Shown here: positions 8,758 through 34,351 of the stretch, in pieces
How the letters are laid out: every line of letters begins with the position of its first letter
How positions within the stretch are numbered: the stretch's first letter is position 1
Assembly (NCBI GenBank): GCA_934636905.1
Contig: CAKUBJ010000020.1
Location: 1 to 35,693 of the forward strand
DNA length: 35,693 nucleotides
Direction of reading: 5' to 3'
From: an uncultured Dysosmobacter sp.
GTDB lineage: Bacteria > Bacillota > Clostridia > Oscillospirales > Oscillospiraceae
Notes under the pieces: generated by a model
The model's database searches: none
Seen by the model: only the letters and a program-made list of their open reading frames with translations
What the model was told of the DNA's origin: nothing
Made by a program: the position numbers and the translations under genes

Positions 8758-9258
8758 ATGCTGGACAAGCGCTATTTTCAGACTACCAACGAGATCATCA
8801 GCCGGTATCCGCTGGAAGAAAAGTCCCTGATCCCCATTATTCAGGACATTCAGGCGGCCTACCGCTATCTTCCGCCGGATCTGCTGGACTATGTGGCCAA
8901 AAAGATCGGCATCACGGAAACCAAAGCCTTCAGCGTTGCGAGCTTCTATGAGAATTTTTCCTTTGAGCAGAAGGGCAGGTACGTCCTGAAGGTCTGTGAC
9001 GGGACGGCGTGCCATGTCCGCAAATCCACGCCGGTGCTGGAATACCTGCGTCAGGAACTGGGACTCAGCGAAACGAAGCAGACCACCGACGACCTCCTCT
9101 TTACGGTGGAGGTGGTGTCCTGTCTGGGAGCCTGCGGACTGGCTCCGGCCATGATGGTCAACGAGCAGGTGCACCCCAAAATGACGCCGGAAAAGGCGGA
9201 GGAGCTGCTGAAGACCCTCCGGAAAGAGGCAGAGGAGGAACAGCATGACGAGAATTGA
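8758..9258 (+). CDS. hydC: NADH-dependent [FeFe]-hydrogenase, NuoE-like [2Fe-2S] subunit (HydC/HndA)
   Basis: This 166-residue subunit has a thioredoxin-like [2Fe-2S] domain. Its four cluster cysteines are Cys80 and Cys85 in VCDGTACH and Cys122 and Cys126 in SCLGACG, the pattern of the 24-kDa subunit of NADH dehydrogenase. It relays electrons between the flavin subunit and HydA. A leading helical segment (residues 1-60) is also usual for the family. AAGGAGAGG precedes the start. The stop overlaps the next gene by 14 nt, implying translational coupling. Gene order NuoE-like, NuoF-like, HydA is that of trimeric NAD(P)-linked or electron-bifurcating hydrogenases. Confidence 0.93.
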   Translation: MLDKRYFQTTNEIISRYPLEEKSLIPIIQDIQAAYRYLPPDLLDYVAKKIGITETKAFSVASFYENFSFEQKGRYVLKVCDGTACHVRKSTPVLEYLRQELGLSETKQTTDDLLFTVEVVSCLGACGLAPAMMVNEQVHPKMTPEKAEELLKTLRKEAEEEQHDEN

Positions 9259-11137
9259 AAACCGTTTTCAGCTTAAGCAGGTGCGGGCGGAGTGTCAGGA
9301 GGCTCTGAAGCAGGAGCAGTGCCGCATTCTCATCTGCGGCGGCACCGGCTGCCTTGCCGGCGGCTCCGCCAGACTGTATGAGCGCATGAAGGAACTGGCG
9401 GCCGGGCAGGCGGACGTAAAGGTGGAAATCGGCCCTGAAATCGCCCATCCCGAAACCCCGGGGCAGATCGGCGTCCACAAAAGCGGCTGCCACGGCTTCT
9501 GCGAAATGGGCCCCCTGATGCGGATTGAGCCTTACGGCTACCTCTACCTGAAGGTGCAGGAGAGCGACTGTGAGGAGATTTTTGAAAAGACCGTCCTGAA
9601 GGGGCACCGGGTGGAGCGGCTCATGTATCATCAGGGGGAGAAGGTCTATCCCTCTGAGGAGGAGATCCCCTTCTATGCCAAACAGACCCGTCTGGTGCTG
9701 AAGAACTGCGGCCATATCGACGCCGAGTGCATTGAGGCCGCGCTGGCGGCCGGTGCCTACGAGGGCTTTGAAAAGGCGTTGTTTGAAATGACGCCCAAGG
9801 CGGTGATCCAGACCGTGACGGATTCCCGGCTCCGGGGCCGGGGCGGCGCAGGCTTCCCGGCGGGGAAGAAGTGGAGCCAGGTGGCTGCCCAGAAGGAGCC
9901 GGTGCGCTATGTGGTCTGCAACGGCGACGAGGGCGACCCCGGTGCGTTTATGGATCGCAGCGTCATGGAAGGCGACCCCCACCGGATGATCGAGGGCATG
10001 ATGATCGCGGCCTACGCCGTGGACGCCCGGGAGGGCTACATCTATGTCCGCGCCGAGTATCCCCTTGCCATTGAGCGGCTGAAGCTGGCCATTGCCCAGG
10101 CGGAGGAGGCCGGACTGCTGGGTGACCATATTCTGGGAACGGAGTTCAGCTTCCATCTGCATATCAACCGGGGCGCCGGCGCCTTCGTCTGCGGCGAGGG
10201 CAGCGCCCTGACCGCCTCCATCGAGGGCAAGCGGGGAATGCCCCGGGTCAAGCCCCCCCGCACCGTGGAGCACGGCCTGTGGGAAAAGCCCACGGTGCTC
10301 AACAACGTGGAAACCTACGCCAATGTGCCCATGATTATCCTGCGGGGGGCGGAGTGGTACCGCGGCATCGGCACACCGGAAAGCCCCGGCACCAAGGCCT
10401 TCGCCCTGACCGGCAACGTGTGCAACACCGGCCTGATTGAGGTGCCCATGGGCACGCCCCTGCGGGATATCGTGTTTGACGTGGGCGGCGGCATTCCCAA
10501 CGGCAAGAAATTCAAGGCCGTGCAGATCGGCGGCCCCTCCGGCGGCTGCCTGTCGGAAAAGGATCTGGATCGCCACATGGACTTTGACTCCCTCACCAGA
10601 ATCGGTGCCATGATCGGCTCCGGCGGCATGGTGGTCATGGACGAGGATACCTGCATGGTTGAGGTGGCGCGCTTCTTCATGAGTTTCACCCAGCGGGAGA
10701 GCTGCGGCAAGTGCGTCCCCTGCCGGGAGGGCACCCAGCGGATGCTGGAGATTCTGGAGCGCATCGTAGCGGGGCAGGGCACCATGGAGGATCTGGACAC
10801 CCTGCGGGATCTGGCGGACATGATTGAAAATACCGCCCTCTGCGGTCTGGGCAAGAGCGCCCCAAAGCCGGTGATCAGCACCCTCAACGCCTTCCGGGAC
10901 GAGTACATTGCCCATATCCGCGACCGCCGCTGCCCTGCGGGGGTCTGCTCCAAACTGCGGGTTTACAAAATCGACCCCGCCAAATGCAAGGGGTGCTCCA
11001 AGTGCGCCCGGAACTGCCCGGTGTCGGCCATCCACGGCGTTGTGAAGTCGCCCTATACCATTGACCAGGACGTCTGCATCCGCTGCGGCGGCTGCGTGGA
11101 GCAGTGTGCCTTCGGCGCGGTCACTGTTGAGAAGTAA
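9245..11137 (+). CDS. hydB: NADH-dependent [FeFe]-hydrogenase, NuoF-like flavoprotein subunit (HydB/HndC)
   Basis: This 630-residue flavoprotein oxidises or reduces NAD(P)H and feeds electrons to HydA. Domains in order are: an N-terminal thioredoxin-like [2Fe-2S] domain (Cys31, Cys36, Cys82, Cys86); the NuoF core with RGRGGAGFPAGKKW at 197-210 for NADH and CNGDEGDPGAF at 225-235 for FMN; an SLBB segment; a [4Fe-4S] site at Cys487, Cys490, Cys493 and Cys533; and a C-terminal two-[4Fe-4S] ferredoxin domain (Cys581/584/587/591 and Cys611/614/617/621). This layout equals bifurcating HydB. Whether ferredoxin is a true partner here cannot be proved from sequence. The ATG lies inside the 3' end of the preceding gene. 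Confidence 0.94.
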   Translation: MTRIENRFQLKQVRAECQEALKQEQCRILICGGTGCLAGGSARLYERMKELAAGQADVKVEIGPEIAHPETPGQIGVHKSGCHGFCEMGPLMRIEPYGYLYLKVQESDCEEIFEKTVLKGHRVERLMYHQGEKVYPSEEEIPFYAKQTRLVLKNCGHIDAECIEAALAAGAYEGFEKALFEMTPKAVIQTVTDSRLRGRGGAGFPAGKKWSQVAAQKEPVRYVVCNGDEGDPGAFMDRSVMEGDPHRMIEGMMIAAYAVDAREGYIYVRAEYPLAIERLKLAIAQAEEAGLLGDHILGTEFSFHLHINRGAGAFVCGEGSALTASIEGKRGMPRVKPPRTVEHGLWEKPTVLNNVETYANVPMIILRGAEWYRGIGTPESPGTKAFALTGNVCNTGLIEVPMGTPLRDIVFDVGGGIPNGKKFKAVQIGGPSGGCLSEKDLDRHMDFDSLTRIGAMIGSGGMVVMDEDTCMVEVARFFMSFTQRESCGKCVPCREGTQRMLEILERIVAGQGTMEDLDTLRDLADMIENTALCGLGKSAPKPVISTLNAFRDEYIAHIRDRRCPAGVCSKLRVYKIDPAKCKGCSKCARNCPVSAIHGVVKSPYTIDQDVCIRCGGCVEQCAFGAVTVEK

Positions 11138-11150
11138 GGAGGATGCCGCC

Positions 11151-12851
11151 ATGGGATTTATGACCATTGACGGTCAGCGGGTGGAGTTTACCAACGAACC
11201 CAACGTCCTGACCGTGATCCGCAATGCGGAGATTGATATTCCGACCCTGTGCTACCATTCCGAACTGTCCATCTACGGCGCCTGCCGGCTGTGCACCGTG
11301 GAGGACGACCGGGGCAAGACCTTTGCCTCCTGTGCGGAGCCGCCCCGGGACGGCATGGTGATCTACACCAACACCCCCCGGCTCATGCGCTACCGCCGCA
11401 CCATTCTGGAACTGCTGCTGGCCGCCCACGACCGTGACTGCACCACCTGCGTCAAAAGCGGCGAGTGCCATCTGCTGGAACTGGCCCACCGCATGGGCGT
11501 GGATCGGATCCGGTTCAAGAACCGGGAAGCCAGATACCCCATTGACGACAGTTCCCCCTCCATTGTCCGCAACCCCAACAAGTGCATCCTCTGCGGCGAC
11601 TGCGTCCGGATGTGCGACAATGTGCAGGCGGTGAACGTCATCGACTTTGCCTACCGGGGCACCAGCACACTGGTGACGCCTGCCTTCAACAAGACCCTCG
11701 CCCAGACCAACTGCGTCAACTGCGGCCAGTGCCGCACGGTCTGCCCCACCGGCGCCATCAGCATCCGCACCAACATCGACGAGGTGTGGGACGCTCTGGC
11801 GGATCCGGACACCATCGTGGTGGCACAGGTGGCACCGGCAGTCCGGGTGGCGCTGGGGGATCGCTTCGGAATGCCCAAGGGCGAAAACGTCATGGGCAAG
11901 CTGGTCAACGCCCTGCACCGGCTGGGCTTTGCGGAGGTGTACGACACCACCTACGGCGCGGATCTCACCGTCATTGAAGAGGCGGAGGAACTGCTGGCTC
12001 ATATTTCCGGCGGGAAGAAGGGGCCGCTGTTCACCTCCTGCTGCCCGGCGTGGGTGAAGTTCTGCGAAACCCGGTATCCGGAACTGGCAGGCAATATCTC
12101 CACCTGCCGATCCCCCCAGCAGATGTTCGGCGCGGTAATCCGGGAGTATTACCGCAGCCCGGAAATCAACCGGGGCAAGAAGCTGCTGTCGGTTTCCATC
12201 ATGCCCTGCACCGCCAAGAAGGAGGAGATCCTCCGGCCGGAGTCCAGAACCAACGGCCGGCAGGACGTGGACTACGTCCTGACCACCACCGAGGTGGCCG
12301 CCATGATCCGCAAATCCGGCATCCGCTTTGAGAATATCGAAGGGGAGTCCACCGATATGCCCTTTGGCATCGGTTCCGGCGGCGGCGTGATTTTCGGGGT
12401 CACCGGCGGCGTGACGGAGGCGGTGCTGCGCCGGATTCAGAAGGGGCACAGCCGCACCGACATGGACAGAATCCGCACCAGCGGCGTCCGGGGAGACGAG
12501 GGCATCAAGGAACTGGTGTTTGACTACATGGGCCGGGAGATCCGGGCCGCCGTGGTCAACGGCCTTGGCAATGCCGACAAACTCATCAAACGCATCCGCA
12601 GCGGCGAGGTGGAATATGACTTTGTGGAAGTCATGGCCTGCCGCAGAGGCTGCATCATGGGCGGCGGTCAGCCGGTGGGCGCCGGCCCCCGGACCCGGAA
12701 GGCCCGGGCCAAGGGGCTGTATGATACCGACGTGGCAACCCAGATCAAGAAGTCCAACGAGAACCCCATGGTTCTCTCCCTGTATGAGGGGCTGCTGAAG
12801 GGCAAGACCCATCAGCTGCTGCACCGCAATTTTGACGGCGCAGACGACTGA
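11151..12851 (+). CDS. hydA: [FeFe]-hydrogenase catalytic subunit HydA (group A)
   Basis: This 566-residue enzyme makes or oxidises H2. It has an N-terminal [2Fe-2S] domain (Cys34/45/48/61), a His-Cys3 [4Fe-4S] site (His93, Cys97, Cys100, Cys106), and two further [4Fe-4S] sites (Cys145/148/151/155 and Cys188/191/194/198). The H-cluster domain has the three family motifs: TSCCPAW (296-301), SIMPCTAKK (349-357) and MACRRGCIMGGGQP (495-508). Cys297 fits the proton-transfer cysteine and Cys298, Cys353, Cys497 and Cys501 the H-cluster ligands of clostridial CpI. In the third motif RR replaces the usual PG. The start follows AAGGAGG by 7-8 nt. Maturases HydE, HydF and HydG are not in the window. 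Confidence 0.95.
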   Translation: MGFMTIDGQRVEFTNEPNVLTVIRNAEIDIPTLCYHSELSIYGACRLCTVEDDRGKTFASCAEPPRDGMVIYTNTPRLMRYRRTILELLLAAHDRDCTTCVKSGECHLLELAHRMGVDRIRFKNREARYPIDDSSPSIVRNPNKCILCGDCVRMCDNVQAVNVIDFAYRGTSTLVTPAFNKTLAQTNCVNCGQCRTVCPTGAISIRTNIDEVWDALADPDTIVVAQVAPAVRVALGDRFGMPKGENVMGKLVNALHRLGFAEVYDTTYGADLTVIEEAEELLAHISGGKKGPLFTSCCPAWVKFCETRYPELAGNISTCRSPQQMFGAVIREYYRSPEINRGKKLLSVSIMPCTAKKEEILRPESRTNGRQDVDYVLTTTEVAAMIRKSGIRFENIEGESTDMPFGIGSGGGVIFGVTGGVTEAVLRRIQKGHSRTDMDRIRTSGVRGDEGIKELVFDYMGREIRAAVVNGLGNADKLIKRIRSGEVEYDFVEVMACRRGCIMGGGQPVGAGPRTRKARAKGLYDTDVATQIKKSNENPMVLSLYEGLLKGKTHQLLHRNFDGADD

Positions 12852-13274: not shown

Positions 13275-13715
13275 TCAGGCATTTCCGCAAAGCAGTTCCA
13301 GTTCCTCCGCCAGAAGCCGCATGGCTTCGTTCAGGCAGCTCTGCATGGACTGGGGCGGGCCGGCTGCAATCCGGATGCTGCACCGCTGCGCCGGCAGCAG
13401 AATTTTTACGGCGTCGCTGGCGCCGATGGCCGATGCCATGGCAGGCGTGACCTCCCCCAGAAGGCCGTTTGCCATGAGGATTCCCACCGGCCCCAGAATG
13501 GCCTGCACCCGAGGCGCATTGTAAATCACGGCATTTTCCCCGGTGGCACCGTCATCGGCATCCCCCTTGAGCATGGCGGCAGTGGCCATTGCGTTGGTGC
13601 CCAGCGCCCGAATTGCAACCTGGGGAAATTCGGCTTTGATCCGCTGGGTAATGGCGCGGCCCATGCCGCCGCCCTGCCCGTCGATGACCGCCACACGGAT
13701 TTTTTTCTCCCGCAT
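13275..13715 (-). CDS. DUF3842 family protein
   Basis: This 146-residue protein matches the DUF3842 family by its opening RVAVIDGQGGGMG, the ALGTNAMATAAMLKG segment, GATGENAVIYNA and GPVGILMANGLLGEVTP. The Gly-rich start suggests a Rossmann-like nucleotide-binding fold, but no activity is established for the family. The start is taken at 13715 because GGGAGG lies about 10 nt upstream; an in-frame ATG 23 codons earlier lacks a comparable site. It is transcribed divergently from the TetR gene, with about 180 bp between the starts. Confidence 0.8.
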   Translation of the reverse strand: MREKKIRVAVIDGQGGGMGRAITQRIKAEFPQVAIRALGTNAMATAAMLKGDADDGATGENAVIYNAPRVQAILGPVGILMANGLLGEVTPAMASAIGASDAVKILLPAQRCSIRIAAGPPQSMQSCLNEAMRLLAEELELLCGNA

Positions 13716-13834
13716 TTTCTGTATGCCTCCCATATGATGCTGCTTTTCAAATCTCATTTTATCCTGCCTCCGGGTTTCCGTCAATGCCTTTTCCTGCTTC
13801 CGATGCAGCCGGCCTGCCCAGCGGGAGATTCCTC

Positions 13835-15648: not shown

Positions 15649-16062
15649 TTACCGTTCCCGCCGGGACAGAGCCATCAGCAGGCCTCCCAGCAGGATGGCG
15701 AAGTCCGCCAGATTCCAGACGTAGCGCCCCAGCTTCGGCACCTTGGGGAACTGCACATAGTCATAGACCCGCTTGTGGCGCAGCCGCTCCCACAGGTTGC
15801 TGAGGCCGCCGCCCAGCGCCAGCCCCGCGCCGACGGGGCTGCGGTGCCGGAAAATCCACACCAGCGGCAGTATGAGAATGGACAATGCCGCAACCAGTCT
15901 CCGCTTCAGCGGCAGGCTGAAGGCCGCACCGTCGTTCCACAGGGCCGTCAGGCGGATGCGCTCCTTCCAGACGGAAGCGTCTCTCCGACCGGCGCGGTTC
16001 AGGAACCACCGCAGGGCGGTGCAGGCGGCCAGTACAACTGCCGCAATGAACAGGGTCAGCAT
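15649..16062 (-). CDS. Divergent signal peptidase II (LspA-like)
   Basis: This 137-residue protein has four hydrophobic stretches (about 1-20, 56-72, 76-90, 116-133). LspA motifs are recognisable: NDGAAFSL (43-50, family NxGxAF), LGGGLSNLWERL (83-94, family GGAxGNxxDR), and the two catalytic aspartates as Asp101 (VYDYVQF) and Asp120 (WNLADFAI). Differences from canonical lipoprotein signal peptidase are Glu for Asp in the GN-x-x-DR motif and loss of the usual N-terminal DQxTK motif. It is therefore an unusual LspA and perhaps a paralogue. Its start overlaps the stop of the GTPase-NYN gene by 7 nt, with AAAGGAGG inside that gene, so translation is coupled. Confidence 0.75.
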   Translation of the reverse strand: MLTLFIAAVVLAACTALRWFLNRAGRRDASVWKERIRLTALWNDGAAFSLPLKRRLVAALSILILPLVWIFRHRSPVGAGLALGGGLSNLWERLRHKRVYDYVQFPKVPKLGRYVWNLADFAILLGGLLMALSRRER

Positions 16063-18701
16063 GAACCGCCCTCCTTTGCTTTCTTCATGGCGGCCCGCAC
16101 CGCGCCGTTTTTCCCGTTTTTCTGATTGTTCTGCCGCACCGCGTCCCCAATCTGCTTCCGTACCTCCGCCATTTCCTCATGAAAGGCGGAAGCCGACAGC
16201 CGCAGGGCGCCGTGGCCTAAGATAATCACCTGCTCCGGCCCGTCGGAGGTGGCCACCCGCACCCGGTGCTGCCGCCCGATTTCGTAGGTAGCCCGTTCGA
16301 TGTAGGCGTCCGCCGTCTCCGCTTCCTTGGTGTAGACGATGGTGATGTTGTGGTATTTTTCCACGCTGCCAAGGCCGCCTTTGACCTTGTAGGCGTCAAA
16401 AACCAGAATCACCCGGCACTTCCGGTACCCCTGATAGTCGCACAGCAGGTCGCACAGCTTTTTCCGGGCGGCGTCCAGATGCTCCGCCGCCAGCTTTTTC
16501 AGTTCGTCCCACGCGAAGATGATGTTGTAGCCGTCCACCAGCAGATAATCCTCGCCGGAGAAGGCCTTTTTCAGTTCCCGGCGGGCTTCCGGGGTATCGT
16601 CTGCCGCCGGACGGCGGGGGGCTTTCGGCGGGGTGAAGGCCTGCCGCTTCACGGCACCGTAGGTGCGCTCAAAAATGGCCTGCAATTCCTTGTCCTCTGC
16701 GGCGGTTCCGGCGTAGGTGCTGCTTTCCCGACGGCGGGGGAGGGGGGATTCCGGCTCGGCTGCCGTCCCCTCCGGCCGCCAGCCGCTGTCTACCTGCGCG
16801 TGCTGCGGCACTTCGTTCCACGGCACAACCACACCGGCGCCGTGGGAGCAGAACACGGAATCCGCCGTGTTTTCCACGTCCCGCTCCGGGTCGTAGCCCA
16901 TGGCTTCCACGACTTTTTCCGGCTCCGTGCAGGGAAAATACCCCGCCGGGACGCAGGACAGCCGCCCCCGTCCCCGGGTGTAAACCGCCACGTCCCGGGC
17001 GTAGTCCCGAAGCCCCGCCACCGGCGCCGTGCCGGTAAGGAGGGTTCCTTCCCCGGCGGTTTCCGGCGGCTCCACTTTGCCGCCCATCTGCTGCAAATCC
17101 GTCATGGCCCGGCCTACCTGTTCGGCGGGCACCTCCAGCCGGAAGCGGTACCACGGCTCCAGCAGCACGCTCTCCGCCTGCATCAGCCCCTGCCGCACCG
17201 CCCGGTAGACGGCCTGACGGAAGTCGCCGCCCTCCGTGTGCTTTTCATGGGCGCGGCCGGCCAGCAGCGTGATTTTGATGTCGGTGATGGGGGAGCCTGT
17301 CAACACCCCCAGATGGGGCTTTTCCAGCAGATGGGTGAAAATCAGCCGCTGCCAGTTGAGATCCAGCTGGTCTGTAGAGCAGGCGGAGGCAAGGGTGATG
17401 CCGCTGCCTGGCTCCCCGGGTTCCAGCAGGAGATGCACCTCCGCGTAGTGCCGCAGAGGCTCAAAATGGCCGATGCCCTCCACGGTATTGGCGATGGTTT
17501 CCCGATAGCAGACGGCGCCGGTGCCGAACTGCACCTCCATTCCCAGCCGCTCCCGGATGAGCCGCTGCAAAATCTCCATCTGCACCTCGCCCATCAGCTG
17601 GGCGTGGATTTCGCCGTTGTTCCAGACGATGTGCAGCTGAGGGTCTTCCTCCTCCAGCTGCCGCAGCTTCTGCAGCGCCGTGTGGGGATCCGTGCCGTCC
17701 GTCAGCTCCACCCGATAGGTCAGCACCGGCTGCAGAATTGCCCCGGCCCAGTCCGGCTCCGCCCCCAGACCCTGCCCCGGGAAGGTGCGGCTCAGCCCGG
17801 TGACCGCCACCACGGCGCCGGCCTCCGCCGCCTCCGTCTGGCGGAATTTTGCCCCGGAGTAAAGCCGCAGCTGATCCGCCTTTTCCTGCCAGACGGTGCC
17901 GCCGTCCCGGCCGGAGATCAGATCCTTTGTGTGCAGGGTGCCGCCGGTGATTTTCATATGGGTCAGCCGGGCGCCCTGGGGATCCCGGGTGATTTTGAAA
18001 ACCCGGGCGCCGAACTCCGCCGGGTACACCGGCTGAGGGGCATACCGCTCTACGCCGTCCAGCAGGGCGTCCACCCCCTCCAGCTTCAGGGCGGAGCCGA
18101 AAAAGCAGGGAAACAGCTTCCGCTCCGCAATCAGGCGGGAGAGCACCGCCTCCGGCAGCGCCCCCGTTTCCAGATACTGTTCCAGCGCCGCCTCATCGCA
18201 GACGGCAGCTTCCTCCGCCAGCGTCTCCGGATTGCCGAAGTCCACGCAGCCGCCGCTGAGTTTTTCCTTCAGATGCGCCAGCAGGGAAGCCCGGTTGGCT
18301 CCCGCCAGATCCATTTTGTTGATAAAGAGAAAGGTGGGCACCTGATACCGTTCCAGCAGATCCCACAGCGTCCGGGTGTGCCCCTGTACGCCGTCGGTGC
18401 CGGAGATCACCAGAATGGCACAGTCCAGCACCTGCAACGTCCGCTCCATCTCTGCGGAAAAGTCCACATGACCCGGCGTGTCCAGCAGGGTGATGCAGGC
18501 ATCTCCCAGTTCCAGCACGGCCTGCTTGGAGAAGATGGTAATGCCCCGCTGGCGCTCCATGGCGTCCGTGTCCAGAAACGCGTCCTGATGATCTACCCGC
18601 CCCAGCCGCCGGATGGCGCCGGCACGGTACAGCAGCGCCTCCGAAAGGGTGGTTTTCCCGGCGTCCACATGGGCCAATATCCCTATACTGCAGTACTTCA
18701 T
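16056..18701 (-). CDS. Tet(M)/EF-G-like translational GTPase fused to a C-terminal YacP/Rae1-like NYN nuclease domain
   Basis: This is an 881-residue protein. Residues 1 to about 640 follow the ribosomal-protection (Tet) and EF-G layout: G1 AHVDAGKT (10-17), G2 RGITI (52-56), G3 DTPGH (74-78), G4 NKMD (128-131), then beta-barrel and EF-G-like domains. The domain IV segment AGRAHEKHTEGGDF replaces the tyrosine-containing YSPVS loop that Tet(M) uses to dislodge tetracycline. After a charged, proline-rich linker (about 640-715) an NYN domain begins at about 718, with candidate catalytic acids Asp723 (VDGYN), Asp769 (VFDAY), Asp798 (ETADAYIE) and Asp820. YacP/Rae1 of Bacillus subtilis cleaves mRNA in the ribosomal A site, so a ribosome-linked nuclease is a reasonable inference. 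A start without a clear ribosome-binding site overlaps a short upstream frame. Confidence 0.88.
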   Translation of the reverse strand: MKYCSIGILAHVDAGKTTLSEALLYRAGAIRRLGRVDHQDAFLDTDAMERQRGITIFSKQAVLELGDACITLLDTPGHVDFSAEMERTLQVLDCAILVISGTDGVQGHTRTLWDLLERYQVPTFLFINKMDLAGANRASLLAHLKEKLSGGCVDFGNPETLAEEAAVCDEAALEQYLETGALPEAVLSRLIAERKLFPCFFGSALKLEGVDALLDGVERYAPQPVYPAEFGARVFKITRDPQGARLTHMKITGGTLHTKDLISGRDGGTVWQEKADQLRLYSGAKFRQTEAAEAGAVVAVTGLSRTFPGQGLGAEPDWAGAILQPVLTYRVELTDGTDPHTALQKLRQLEEEDPQLHIVWNNGEIHAQLMGEVQMEILQRLIRERLGMEVQFGTGAVCYRETIANTVEGIGHFEPLRHYAEVHLLLEPGEPGSGITLASACSTDQLDLNWQRLIFTHLLEKPHLGVLTGSPITDIKITLLAGRAHEKHTEGGDFRQAVYRAVRQGLMQAESVLLEPWYRFRLEVPAEQVGRAMTDLQQMGGKVEPPETAGEGTLLTGTAPVAGLRDYARDVAVYTRGRGRLSCVPAGYFPCTEPEKVVEAMGYDPERDVENTADSVFCSHGAGVVVPWNEVPQHAQVDSGWRPEGTAAEPESPLPRRRESSTYAGTAAEDKELQAIFERTYGAVKRQAFTPPKAPRRPAADDTPEARRELKKAFSGEDYLLVDGYNIIFAWDELKKLAAEHLDAARKKLCDLLCDYQGYRKCRVILVFDAYKVKGGLGSVEKYHNITIVYTKEAETADAYIERATYEIGRQHRVRVATSDGPEQVIILGHGALRLSASAFHEEMAEVRKQIGDAVRQNNQKNGKNGAVRAAMKKAKEGGSC

Positions 18702-18721
18702 ACGATGAAATGCGCTTTCAT
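18698..18721 (-). CDS. Possible 7-codon upstream frame coupled to the GTPase-NYN gene
   Basis: On the minus strand an ATG at 18721 opens the frame MKAHFIV, whose TGA overlaps the main ATG (ATGA at 18701-18698). The main gene has no good Shine-Dalgarno site, so re-initiation after this frame is a possible entry route. The frame itself has only a distant AAAGGG upstream. It is very short and could be chance. Confidence 0.25.
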   Translation of the reverse strand: MKAHFIV

Positions 18722-18854
18722 AATAAACTGATAACCCTTTCTCTGCCGCTTAGCTGTTTGCAATTACAACCGGTCTTCCACCGTTTCCATAGCAGTGAGT
18801 GCCGGAGAACACCTCTTGAACAGCCACGCTGCCCTTGCTAATTGCCGGAAGCAT

Positions 18855-30475: not shown

Positions 30476-30652
30476 TTATATAAACGGGCGGCGGAAATGC
30501 TCCTATCCTGATTCCACGGACAGGATAGCACATCCGCCAACAAAAGGCAATAGGCAATCACAGTAAATTTAACAACTCACCCGAGCGTATCGGATTCAAT
30601 ACCCGCCCGGCCGCATCTCGGGATGGCCGGACAAAGAAAGGTGAATGTGAAG
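30476..30652 (+). promoter_or_regulatory. Structured rpoB leader
   Basis: An extended hairpin spans 30490-30538: GGCGGA with TCCGCC at the base and CTATCCTG with CAGGATAG at the top, separated by small internal loops. The remaining leader to the start codon shows nothing definite. It could take part in rpoBC control, but I do not recognise a known leader class. Confidence 0.45.
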
Positions 30653-33600
30653 ATGGCTAAGGACAAGTACTACGGCAAAACCCTCCGCAAGAATTTTGCC
30701 CGCCATGAGGAAGTCATGCCCATGCCCAACCTTCTGGAGATTCAGAAAACCTCCTATCAGGAGTTTCTGAATACCGGACTCCGGGAGGTATTCGCGGATG
30801 TGGGCGCGATTACGGACTATCAGGGCAATCTGGAACTGACCTTCATCGATTTCCGCATGGATGAGCCTCCCAAGTACGATGTGGAAGAGTGCAAGGCGCG
30901 GGACGCCACCTACGCCGCCCCCCTGAAGGTCACGGTGCGCCTGCGGAACAAGGAGACGGAGGAAATCAAGGAGCAGGAGATCTTCATGGGAGATTTCCCC
31001 CTGATGACCCATTCCGGCACCTTCGTCATCAACGGCGCGGAGCGGGTGGTGGTTTCCCAGATCGTCCGTTCCCCCGGCGTATATTACGGCAAGGAGATCG
31101 ATATCAAGACCGACCTGCCCATCCTCACCTCCACGGTGATCCCCTACCGGGGCGCATGGCTGGAATATGAAACCGACGCCAACGAGGTGTTCTGGGTGCG
31201 GATCGACAAGAACCGCAAGCTGCCCATCACCTGCCTGATCCGGGCGCTGGGTCTGAAGACCGACGCGGAGATTCTGGAGCGCTTCAGCGACGATCCCCGC
31301 ATTGCCGCCACGCTGGAGAAGGATCCCTGCAAGACGTATGAGGACGCCATGCTGGAGATCTACCGCAAACTCCGTCCCGGTGAGCCCCCTACGGTGGAGG
31401 CTTCCGAAACCCTGATGAACAACCTGTTCTTCGATCCCCGGCGGTATGACCTGTCCGTGGTGGGACGGTACAAGTTCAACAGGAAGCTGTCCCTGTGGCA
31501 GCGGGTCACCGGCTACAAGCTGGCGCAGCCCGTGGCGGATCCTGCCACCGGCGAACTGCTGTTTGAGGAGGGGCACCTGCTGAGCAAGGAGGATGCCCGC
31601 CTGCTGGACGCCGTGGGCGTGGCCGAGGTGGTCATCGATGTGGACGGCCAGAGCCTGCGGGTGCAGTCCAACAAAATGTGCGACCTTGCCCATTATGTGG
31701 ACTTTGACCCTGCCGAGTGCGGCATCAAGGAGCGGGTTCGCTTTGACGTGCTGCAGGAACTGCTGGGGCAGTATTCCGGCGAGGAACTGAAGGAGCAGAT
31801 CAAGCTCCATAAGGACGCCCTGGTGCCCAAGCACATCATCATCGACGATATTCTCTGCTCCATCAACTACATGAACGGCCTGGCCCGGGGCATCTCCGTG
31901 AAGGACGACATCGACCATCTGGGCAACCGCCGCCTGCGCTGCGTGGGCGAGCTGCTGCAGAACCAGTTCCGCATCGGCTTCAGCCGCATGGAGCGCGTGA
32001 TCCGCGAGCGCATGACCATTCAGGATCTGGACATCGTCACGCCCCAGAGCCTGATCAACATCCGCCCCGTCACCGCCGCCATCAAGGAGTTCTTCGGCTC
32101 CAGCCCCCTGAGCCAGTTCATGGATCAGACCAACCCGCTGGCCGAGCTGACCCACAAGCGCCGTCTGTCCGCACTGGGCCCCGGCGGTCTGAGCCGCGAG
32201 CGCGCCAACATGGAGGTCCGAGACGTGCATTACAGCCACTATGGCCGTATGTGCCCCATTGAGACCCCTGAAGGCCCCAACATCGGCCTGATCTCCTATC
32301 TGGCTACCTATGCCCGCATCAACGAGTACGGCTTCATCGAGGCACCCTACCGCGCTGTGGACAAGGAGACCGGCAAGGTGGCTATGGAAGCCACTTATAT
32401 GACCGCCGACGAGGAGGACAACTTCATCGTCGCCCAGGCTACCGAGCCCATCGGTGAGGATGGCTGCCTGGTGAATACCCGTGTTACCGCCCGGTACCGG
32501 GACGAGATCGTGGAAGTGGAGCGGGAGCGCATCGACTACGTGGACGTGTCTCCCCGCATGATGGTCTCCATCGCTACCGCCATGATCCCCTTCCTGCCCA
32601 ACGACGACGCAAACCGTGCTCTGATGGGCGCAAACATGCAGCGTCAGGCCGTGCCTCTGCTGAAGCCTCACGCACCCATCGTGGGCACCGGTATGGAGCA
32701 CAAGATCTGCATCGACTCTGAGATCGTGGTCCTGGCCGAGGGCGACGGCGTGGTCACCTCTGTGGACGCCCGCCATGTTACCGTCAAGTATGACAGCGGC
32801 GAGACCAAGGATTATAAGCTGACCAAGTTCCTGCGCTCCAACCACACCACCTGCATCAACCAGCATCCCATCGTGGATGTGGGCGAGCGGGTCCACGGCA
32901 AGCGCCTGAACGAAAAGGGCGAGTGGGAGGATCCCACGGTCCTGGCGGACGGTCCCGCCACCGATCAGGGCGAGATCGCTCTGGGCCAGAACATTCTGGT
33001 GGGCTTCATGACCTGGGAAGGCTACAACTACGAGGACGCCGTTCTGCTGAACGAGCGCCTGGTCCGCGAGGATCTGTATACCTCCATTCATATTGAGGAA
33101 TTCGAGATCGACTCCCGGGATACCAAGCTGGGACCCGAGGAGATCACCCGTGATATCCCCAACGTGGGCGAGGATGCGCTGAAGGATCTGGACGAGCGCG
33201 GTATCGTTCGCGTGGGCGCCGAGGTCAAGTCCGGCGACATTCTGGTGGGCAAGGTCACGCCCAAGGGCGAGACCGACCTCACCGCTGAGGAGCGCCTGCT
33301 GCGGGCAATCTTCGGTGAAAAGGCCCGCGAGGTCCGCGACACCTCTTTGAAGGTGCCCCACGGCGAGAGCGGCATCGTGCTGGATACCAAGGTCTTTACC
33401 CGTGAAAACGGCGATGAGCTTGGCCCCGGCGTCAATCAGGTGGTCCGCGTGTATATCGCTCAGCGCCGTAAGATCCAGGTGGGCGATAAAATGGCAGGCC
33501 GTCACGGCAACAAGGGTGTTGTGTCCCGCGTGCTGCCTACCGAGGATATGCCCTTCCTGCCCGACGGCACCCCGCTGGACATCGTGCTGAACCCCCTGGG

Positions 33601-34351
33601 CGTGCCTTCCCGTATGAACATCGGTCAGGTGCTGGAAGTCCATCTGGGCTACGCCGCCCACGCACTGGGCTATAAGGTGGCCACGCCTATCTTCGACGGC
33701 GCCACCTACGAGGACATTCAGGCCGAACTGGTGAAGGCCGGGCTGGATCCCGAGGGCAAGAGCGTGCTGTATGACGGCCGCACCGGCGAACCCTTCGACA
33801 ACAAGGTCACCGTGGGCTATGTGTACTTCCTGAAGCTGCATCATCTGGTGGATGATAAGATCCACGCCCGTTCCACCGGCCCCTACTCTCTGGTGACCCA
33901 GCAGCCTCTGGGCGGCAAGGCTCAGTTCGGCGGCCAGCGCTTCGGCGAAATGGAAGTCTGGGCGCTGGAAGCCTACGGCGCCGCCTATACCCTGCAGGAA
34001 ATCCTGACGGTGAAGTCCGACGACGTCACCGGCCGTGTCCGCACTTACGAATCCATCGTCAAGGGTCACAACGTCCCCACCCCCGGTGTGCCGGAGTCCT
34101 TCCGGGTGCTGGTGAAGGAACTGCAGTCCCTGTGTCTGGACATTCAGGTGCTGGACAAGGACGGCAACGCCGTGGATCTCAAGGAGGACGAGGATGCTCT
34201 CGACACCTTCAACCTCTCCCGCATGGACGCCGACGACGACCGGCACCGCAGCTTCGCGGAGGATGCCGAGCTGGAGGAGTCCGGCTTCGAATTTGAGGAC
34301 GCGCCGGAGGACGCCGGCGCCGATGTGGATGTTGACTTCGACGACGAATGA
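30653..34351 (+). CDS. rpoB: DNA-directed RNA polymerase subunit beta
   Basis: This is the beta subunit of RNA polymerase, 1232 residues, full length. The start at 30653 ([11 protein letters not shown]) follows AAAGGTG; an upstream ATG at 30623 has no ribosome-binding site. Recognisable regions include the rifampicin pocket [13 protein letters not shown] and [15 protein letters not shown], where the residues most often changed in resistance (E. coli Gln513, Asp516, His526, Ser531) are wild type. Others are [19 protein letters not shown] [15 protein letters not shown], the [14 protein letters not shown] region, [13 protein letters not shown] and the C-terminal [20 protein letters not shown]. 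The acidic C-terminal tail (about 30 residues rich in Asp/Glu) is longer than in enterobacteria. Confidence 0.99.

Follow-up and report, generated by a model that had tools for sequence, protein, structure and literature searches.

What use does a bacterium make of a protein that joins, on a single chain, a GTPase of the translational type and a nuclease of the Rae1 type? The question is raised by contig CAKUBJ010000020.1 of the assembly GCA_934636905.1, from an uncultured Dysosmobacter sp.; we call the window the whole stretch of DNA that was analysed, namely positions 1 to 35,693 of its forward strand. The gene concerned occupies 16056..18701 on the minus strand and is uninterrupted: 881 codons and a stop, with the ATG at 18701 and the stop codon at 16058-16056 (an 821-residue frame on the opposite, plus strand, 16266-18731, is taken as antisense). 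With moderate confidence, and from sequence comparisons, we read this fusion as the relocated Rae1 of its lineage, carried by a GTPase that would bring the nuclease to ribosomes for mRNA cleavage.

Two intact halves on one chain

An earlier note on this DNA, made from the letters alone, had placed a GTPase and an NYN nuclease domain on one 881-residue chain. Its coordinates are right (we add the strand) and both halves are found intact. The G domain (residues 3-222, 18036..18695, minus strand like every other part of the gene) matches Pfam GTP_EFTU PF00009 at 3e-51 and contains the motifs G1-G4; EF-G domains II and III (residues 230-393, 17523..18014) are recognized in the structural model, PF22042 and PF14492 remaining just under their curated cut-offs; domain IV (residues 396-509, 17175..17516) and domain V (residues 512-593, 16923..17168) match EFG_IV PF03764 and EFG_C PF00679, each at 1e-16. 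The GTP-binding motifs and the EF-G domains IV and V that characterize an EF2-type translational GTPase are thus all present. At the other end of the chain, the NYN_YacP domain (residues 720-865, 16107..16544) matches Pfam PF05991 at 3e-50, with 170.8 bits for a cut-off of 24.6, and the solved chains 5mq8 and 5mq9 of Bacillus subtilis YacP at 4e-27. An AlphaFold2 model built with 48 sequences (mean predicted local distance difference test score, pLDDT, 79.6; predicted template modelling score 0.57) consists of a body that resembles EF-G, a small extension (about 591-636) which is folded, a helix at 667-681 lying between low-confidence linker stretches, and a folded nuclease. The top Foldseek matches to this model are EF-G structures.

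Such proteins are numerous. In a search with the NYN region among candidates of comparable length, all 7997 scored proteins match at E <= 0.001; among the 120 matches listed, 112 combine GTP_EFTU with NYN, six combine other EF-G domains with NYN and two have neither combination, and two of the matches listed are named "translation factor GTPase family protein". When each species was represented by one genome, a scan found at least 577 relatives, the best 80 of these being clostridial where named. The fusion is maintained across 47-74% identity to the window protein. Two proteins of 737 residues, P0014 and P0028, have an NYN domain 92-93% identical to that of the window, together with PF07244 and no EF-G domain listed: they are either an assembly chimaera or the sign of another NYN partner.

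A single NYN_YacP gene per genome

We counted NYN_YacP genes in genomes drawn from the class Clostridia (118), from the order (118) and from the phylum (299), the draws being requested at a completeness of 90 or 95%, with quality values absent from the results. In the class draw, to which the genome of the window does not belong, 79 genomes possess NYN_YacP and each of them has exactly one: it is fused in 44 genomes (in G054 it is broken into two frames and in G081 cut by the end of the contig), stand-alone in 35, and no genome has both. The exclusion has a Fisher probability of 2e-9, kinship between the genomes being ignored. The stand-alone genes of this draw have 168-213 codons. In the phylum draw, NYN_YacP is matched at E <= 0.001 in 167 genomes, in 164 of them over the cut-off. 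A single match was obtained in 165 genomes, among them all 20 with the fusion; G267 has two matches, both stand-alone, and G355 also has two. A protein of 349 residues in G289 is an exception in size. The Fisher probability is here 1e-6 if the other 147 matches are treated as stand-alone, not all of them being confirmed as such. We rejected the idea that the fused NYN domain is an added second nuclease, as no genome has both forms among the matches listed. In the order draw, the full-length fusion is present in 47 of the 118 genomes and a match of any kind in 53: the fusion is common but not universal.

The place from which the nuclease gene would have departed can be examined too. Of the 35 stand-alone loci, 28 have a gene of the RlmB cluster before the NYN_YacP gene and 29 have one of the SigH cluster after it (both names were verified by NCBIfam on ten sampled proteins; the other neighbouring clusters are presumably MrnC, CysS, ThyX, EF-Tu and NusG). 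RlmB is retained in all of the 30 fusion genomes tested, and in eight of them SigH adjoins RlmB with no NYN gene in between. In six of these eight empty slots, SigH is 84-96% identical to the SigH of stand-alone loci and the gaps measure 86, 114, 215, 239, 332 and 583 bases; in the other two, SigH is over its cut-off with 45-49% identity, and one finds a 37-base gap and one overlap. The fused loci themselves have no conserved neighbours within four genes, on which ground an operon or a mobile-element setting was rejected.

The phylogenies tell a similar story on both sides of the linker. In a tree of 58 GTPases, the fused ones form one clade (99/99) which is sister to unfused ones, and in the NYN tree the 27 fused rows form one clade (81/98; 83% of the bootstrap trees). 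Both trees are compatible with a single fusion event. The link with Rae1 is stronger than the earlier note had made it, since the fusion stands in for the stand-alone gene.

A GTPase subfamily distinct from Tet and from EF-G

The earlier note had described the GTPase half as of Tet/EF-G type. The EF-G-like fold is indeed there, but the protein belongs neither to Tet nor to EF-G: it is a member of what the sequences indicate is a distinct subfamily of EF-G/Tet-like translational GTPases. Its score with the NCBI Tet model NF012153 is 404 bits, far under the cut-off of 775, and five more members of the subfamily, two fused and three unfused, score 384-468, while the comparison Tet proteins L129, L130, L134 and L140 of the same class draw score 819-1001; L139, a protein on the Tet side of the tree, scores 561. 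With the NCBIfam EF-G model the window protein obtains 278 bits for a cut-off of 659. In the tree, 27 fused and seven unfused GTPases form a single clade (100/100). The Tet clade (99/94), on the side of which the long branches L128 and L139 fall, is separate from it, and so is EF-G; Tet and the subfamily join each other before EF-G (100/98).

The differences are concentrated in domain IV. At its tip (residues 482-495, 17217..17258), which is the site of the drug-displacing loop of Tet, the alignment gives GRAHEKHTEGGDFR in the window protein and GLYYSPVSTPADFR in Tet proteins, and a second family-specific segment, GIGHFEPLRHYAEVHL, lies at residues 409-424 (17430..17477). The pattern GHxEPLRHYxE, taken from the latter, occurs in 117 of 120 fused and in all seven unfused sequences, and the pattern GxAHxKHTxGGDF in 113 of 120 and six of seven; neither occurs in any of 13 "tet" sequences or of 18 reference GTPases. 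The 120 fused sequences, which are not independent species samples, are the window protein and 119 of the 123 fetched fusion loci (79 from L001-L080 and 40 from L081 on), all distinct; L023, L120, L176 and L177, which are broken, cut or short, were left out. The unfused set consists of seven genes and excludes the broken fusions L023 and L120. Three of the 13 "tet" rows (L136-L138) group with EF-G-like references in the tree, and the 13 Tet rows of the conservation alignment are a different, hand-picked set. The earlier note had thus rightly seen that the displacing loop of Tet(M) is replaced, and that the motifs G1-G4 are intact: their key positions are 95-100% conserved in the 120 fused sequences, except A14 (78%).

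Behind domain V comes a C-terminal extension (residues 591-636, 16794..16931, delimited by alignment; pLDDT of the block about 80-90), which the fused members have in common with the unfused ones and which the aligned Tet and EF-G sequences lack. Its C591 and C618 are nearly invariant, and position 636 is His in 95% of the fused relatives and Q in the window protein; a metal site in this extension is conceivable. Compared with Tet(M) and Tet(O), the GTPase half shares the EF-G-like fold and the G motifs, with about 30% identity over residues 1-590, but differs by its domain IV tip, this extra extension, its clade and its score under the cut-off. With EF-G it shares the fold, and His 485 is common to the two aligned EF-G sequences, but the tip loops are other ones and the clade is separate. 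We rejected membership in Tet on the score, the replaced tip loop and the clade of its own, and membership in EF-G, the translocase, on the score and the separate clade.

The unfused GTPase

The same GTPase also exists alone. Matches at 42-53% identity which end at about residue 636 were found in six of the 118 genomes of the class draw (seven genes), in four of 118 in the order draw and in four of 299 in the phylum draw, where two more, G396 and G414, are distant or partial. The seven genes fetched have 647-655 residues and end after the extension, and the tip of domain IV is as conserved in them as in the fused members. Since the tip loops are kept without an attached nuclease, they suggest that the GTPase would have a task of its own in the decoding region. 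When the 16 genomes of the three draws are pooled, a separate NYN_YacP gene is present in six, and ten (eight of 14 if the two distant matches are set aside) have no NYN_YacP above the cut-off; these ten are the chief sign that the GTPase does work of its own, with no nuclease needed. The "self-contained" factor of the earlier note is therefore only one of two states: the fused form does exist, but the GTPase also occurs without the nuclease.

The six genomes in which the unfused GTPase and NYN_YacP are both present, as separate genes, are G070, G116 (with two GTPase copies), G287, G306, G342 and G391. They look like the state expected before the fusion, and in such natural hosts one can ask whether the GTPase and NYN_YacP meet on the ribosome. 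With its tip loops identical in kind to those of the fusion, the unfused GTPase is by itself a translation factor awaiting study.

The nuclease half and its changed positions

In the alignment with 5mq8 and 5mq9, D723 corresponds to D7 of B. subtilis YacP and D798 to D81. The acids D723, D769, D798 and D820 are invariant, as are N726 and E802, in the 120 fused and in the 35 stand-alone sequences; the earlier note had spoken of four candidate catalytic acids, and the loss of the NYN acids in orthologues, which it had named as fatal to its proposal, is not observed. Other positions separate the two forms: 729 is N in 33 of the 35 stand-alone proteins, each of the 120 fused ones having F, H or Y there, 771 is Y in all fused ones and H, Y or Q in the stand-alone ones, and 839 is E in 35 of 35 stand-alone versus 54 of 120 fused sequences. 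The fused NYN domain is presumably an active nuclease which would sit on the ribosome in a changed way.

A proposed mechanism and its rivals

EF-G-type factors insert domain IV into the A site. We propose that the Rae1 gene would have left its slot between rlmB and sigH in a large group of Clostridia, and that Rae1 would have been attached behind the distinct EF-G/Tet-like GTPase, at its C-terminus, by a linker some 80 residues long. The GTPase half would bind the factor site of the ribosome with GTP, its own domain IV tip reaching into the A site; once GTP is hydrolysed or domain IV is withdrawn, the nuclease on its tether would enter the A site and cut the mRNA there, as Rae1 of B. subtilis does, on the same ribosome or on a neighbouring one. 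Alternatively, the two ends of the chain might serve neighbouring ribosomes. That the protein binds ribosomes, hydrolyses GTP and cuts mRNA, in which order and upon which trigger, is what we infer from sequence; the earlier note, which pointed to a factor that senses stalled ribosomes or cleaves mRNA, is supported in part.

Several points weigh against the fusion being a relocated Rae1 brought to ribosomes in this manner. Domain IV and the nuclease cannot share one A site simultaneously; as they exclude each other there, the GTPase would probably bind and inspect first, domain IV would then withdraw, and the nuclease would enter last. The slot could be judged in only eight of the 30 fusion genomes, the other 22 having no SigH within the fetched flank of about 1.5 kb, and a Rae1 gene would fit into the gap of 583 bases (L199), although this genome has a single NYN match. 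The support of the fused-NYN clade is only moderate, ten of the 16 genomes with the unfused GTPase do without NYN_YacP, and the fused-specific residues at 729, 771 and 839 mean that the ribosome contacts may have changed. A more specific version of the proposal can be stated tentatively: the protein could be a one-chain bacterial no-go factor, whose GTPase would inspect an empty or blocked A site through GHFEPLRHYAEVH and GRAHxKHTEGGDFR and would then hand this site over to the tethered Rae1, thereby coupling GTP-driven inspection to mRNA cleavage.

Could the protein instead protect the ribosome against tetracycline or another A-site drug, with an RNase as an add-on, as suggested in the excerpts of Atkinson 2015 (BMC Genomics 16:78, PMC4342817)? 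Tet is the nearest well-known family, the fusions were filed under it in that paper and the two groups join before EF-G in the tree. All the members scored remain nevertheless far from the Tet cut-off, and the loop is replaced precisely where, according to an excerpt of PMC8161019, Pro-509 of the Tet(M) domain IV tip contacts the drug site; the neighbourhood is neither mobile nor conserved. Moreover, four of the 44 fusion genomes of the class draw (G005, G033, G039 and G051) also encode a Tet-like protein apart from the fusion, about 640 residues long. The ones retrieved from G005, G033 and G051 group with the Tet clade; the G033 protein has the same sequence as L130, a protein over the NCBI Tet cut-off. 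We hold drug protection to be very improbable, and in this the earlier note, which had argued that the role is not drug resistance, agrees with us, the drug-displacing tip of Tet being absent.

A role in ribosome maturation, in which the GTPase would recognize pre-ribosomes or free subunits and the NYN domain would trim rRNA or tRNA, seems rather unlikely to us. YacP-like NYN domains had been proposed to act in the maturation of rRNA or tRNA, in a work cited in the excerpts of Atkinson 2015, and the stand-alone genes do adjoin that of the rRNA methyltransferase RlmB; but the fusion has left this neighbourhood, about half of the genomes of the order draw are without it, unlike what holds for a core maturation enzyme, and the activity named for the nearest tested relative, in the excerpts seen, is the cleavage of mRNA on ribosomes. 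It is likewise unlikely, and slightly more so, that two independent factors were chained by accident, the GTPase keeping its own role and the NYN domain behaving as a free Rae1. That the unfused GTPase persists without NYN, with a domain IV tip as conserved as in the fusion, and that the linker varies in length speak for such a loose coupling; that the fusion is maintained over such a range of identities with few broken copies, that the linker contains a conserved helix and that the NYN domain has acquired fused-specific positions speak against it.

The linker (residues 637-717, 16551..16793) has low confidence at 646-663 and 685-713 and variable alignment columns; from the extension motif to the first Asp of the nuclease it spans 89-141 residues (118 of the 120 fused sequences, in which the motif was found). 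Its helix (residues 667-681, 16659..16703), taken from the model, coincides with a conserved stretch of the type DKEL..IFERTYG (columns 670-682), the strict pattern of which is present in 74 of the 120 sequences. In the alignment this helix lies next to the Tet C-terminal helix, a very short likeness; it is a possible docking element. The broken copies, each in two frames, are L023:1871-4531 and L120:4130-6759; they could be assembly errors or real decay.

Relation to known systems

The architecture is not new, as it is in print: the excerpts of Atkinson 2015 report Tet proteins with a YacP-like NYN RNase domain in ten species of Clostridiales and propose for them a new mechanism of resistance. 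The architecture and the order of bacteria being the same, this is very probably the same family. The earlier note had guessed that long NYN-containing proteins annotated as tetracycline resistance exist in other Clostridia, which is so; it knew of no functional description, whereas a hypothesis had in fact accompanied them. Where the excerpts of that paper file the proteins under Tet, with a domain gained for resistance, we find a separate subfamily, the NYN domain of which is the only NYN_YacP of the genome. Among the hits listed by a full-text literature search, outside the coverage of which most subscription papers lie, only Atkinson 2015 deals with the fusion, and none is a functional study of it. 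What is new here is the assignment to a subfamily, the exclusion leaving one Rae1 per genome, the empty slot between rlmB and sigH in some genomes, and the trees compatible with one fusion.

Rae1 itself is described as an A-site mRNA endonuclease, grouped with RelE-type enzymes, in an excerpt of a 2025 review (PMC12320835), and is named likewise in an excerpt of PMC6613710. The NYN half is homologous to Rae1/YacP of B. subtilis, its acids being those of the stand-alone clostridial genes, but Rae1 is a single-domain protein encoded beside rlmB, whereas the NYN domain of the fusion is tethered to a GTPase, is encoded elsewhere in the genome and differs at 729, 771 and 839. According to the excerpt of the same review, the list of mRNA endonucleases acting on the ribosome is incomplete and Rae1 is among the few named. 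A widespread family joining Rae1 to a GTPase leads to a direct question: does GTP control where and when Rae1 cuts? Besides, the published class of "Tet plus RNase" proteins probably performs housekeeping, which bears on the counting of resistance genes in gut bacteria.

Neighbouring genes in the window

Immediately downstream on the same strand, a signal-peptidase-II-like (LspA-like) protein of 137 residues is encoded at 15649..16062 (minus strand; PF01252, 4.9e-19). Its gene overlaps the 3' end of the fusion gene by 7 bases, and it is a neighbour and not a part of the factor: homologues with 46-57% identity follow the fusion in only seven of the fetched loci. Its score with the NCBIfam lspA model is 47 bits for a cut-off of 74. 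Elsewhere in the window there are long minus-strand frames which gave no family matches, and several of them lie opposite plus-strand genes of clear families.

Finally we must note three other genes or gene groups of the window. A DUF3842 protein is encoded at 13275-13784 on the minus strand (PF12953, 6.7e-47). At 9245-12851, on the plus strand, the gene of a NuoF-like subunit adjoins that of the large subunit of an iron-only hydrogenase. The beta subunit of RNA polymerase is encoded at 30623-34351 on the plus strand, that is, 12 kb from the start of the fusion gene and on the opposite strand.

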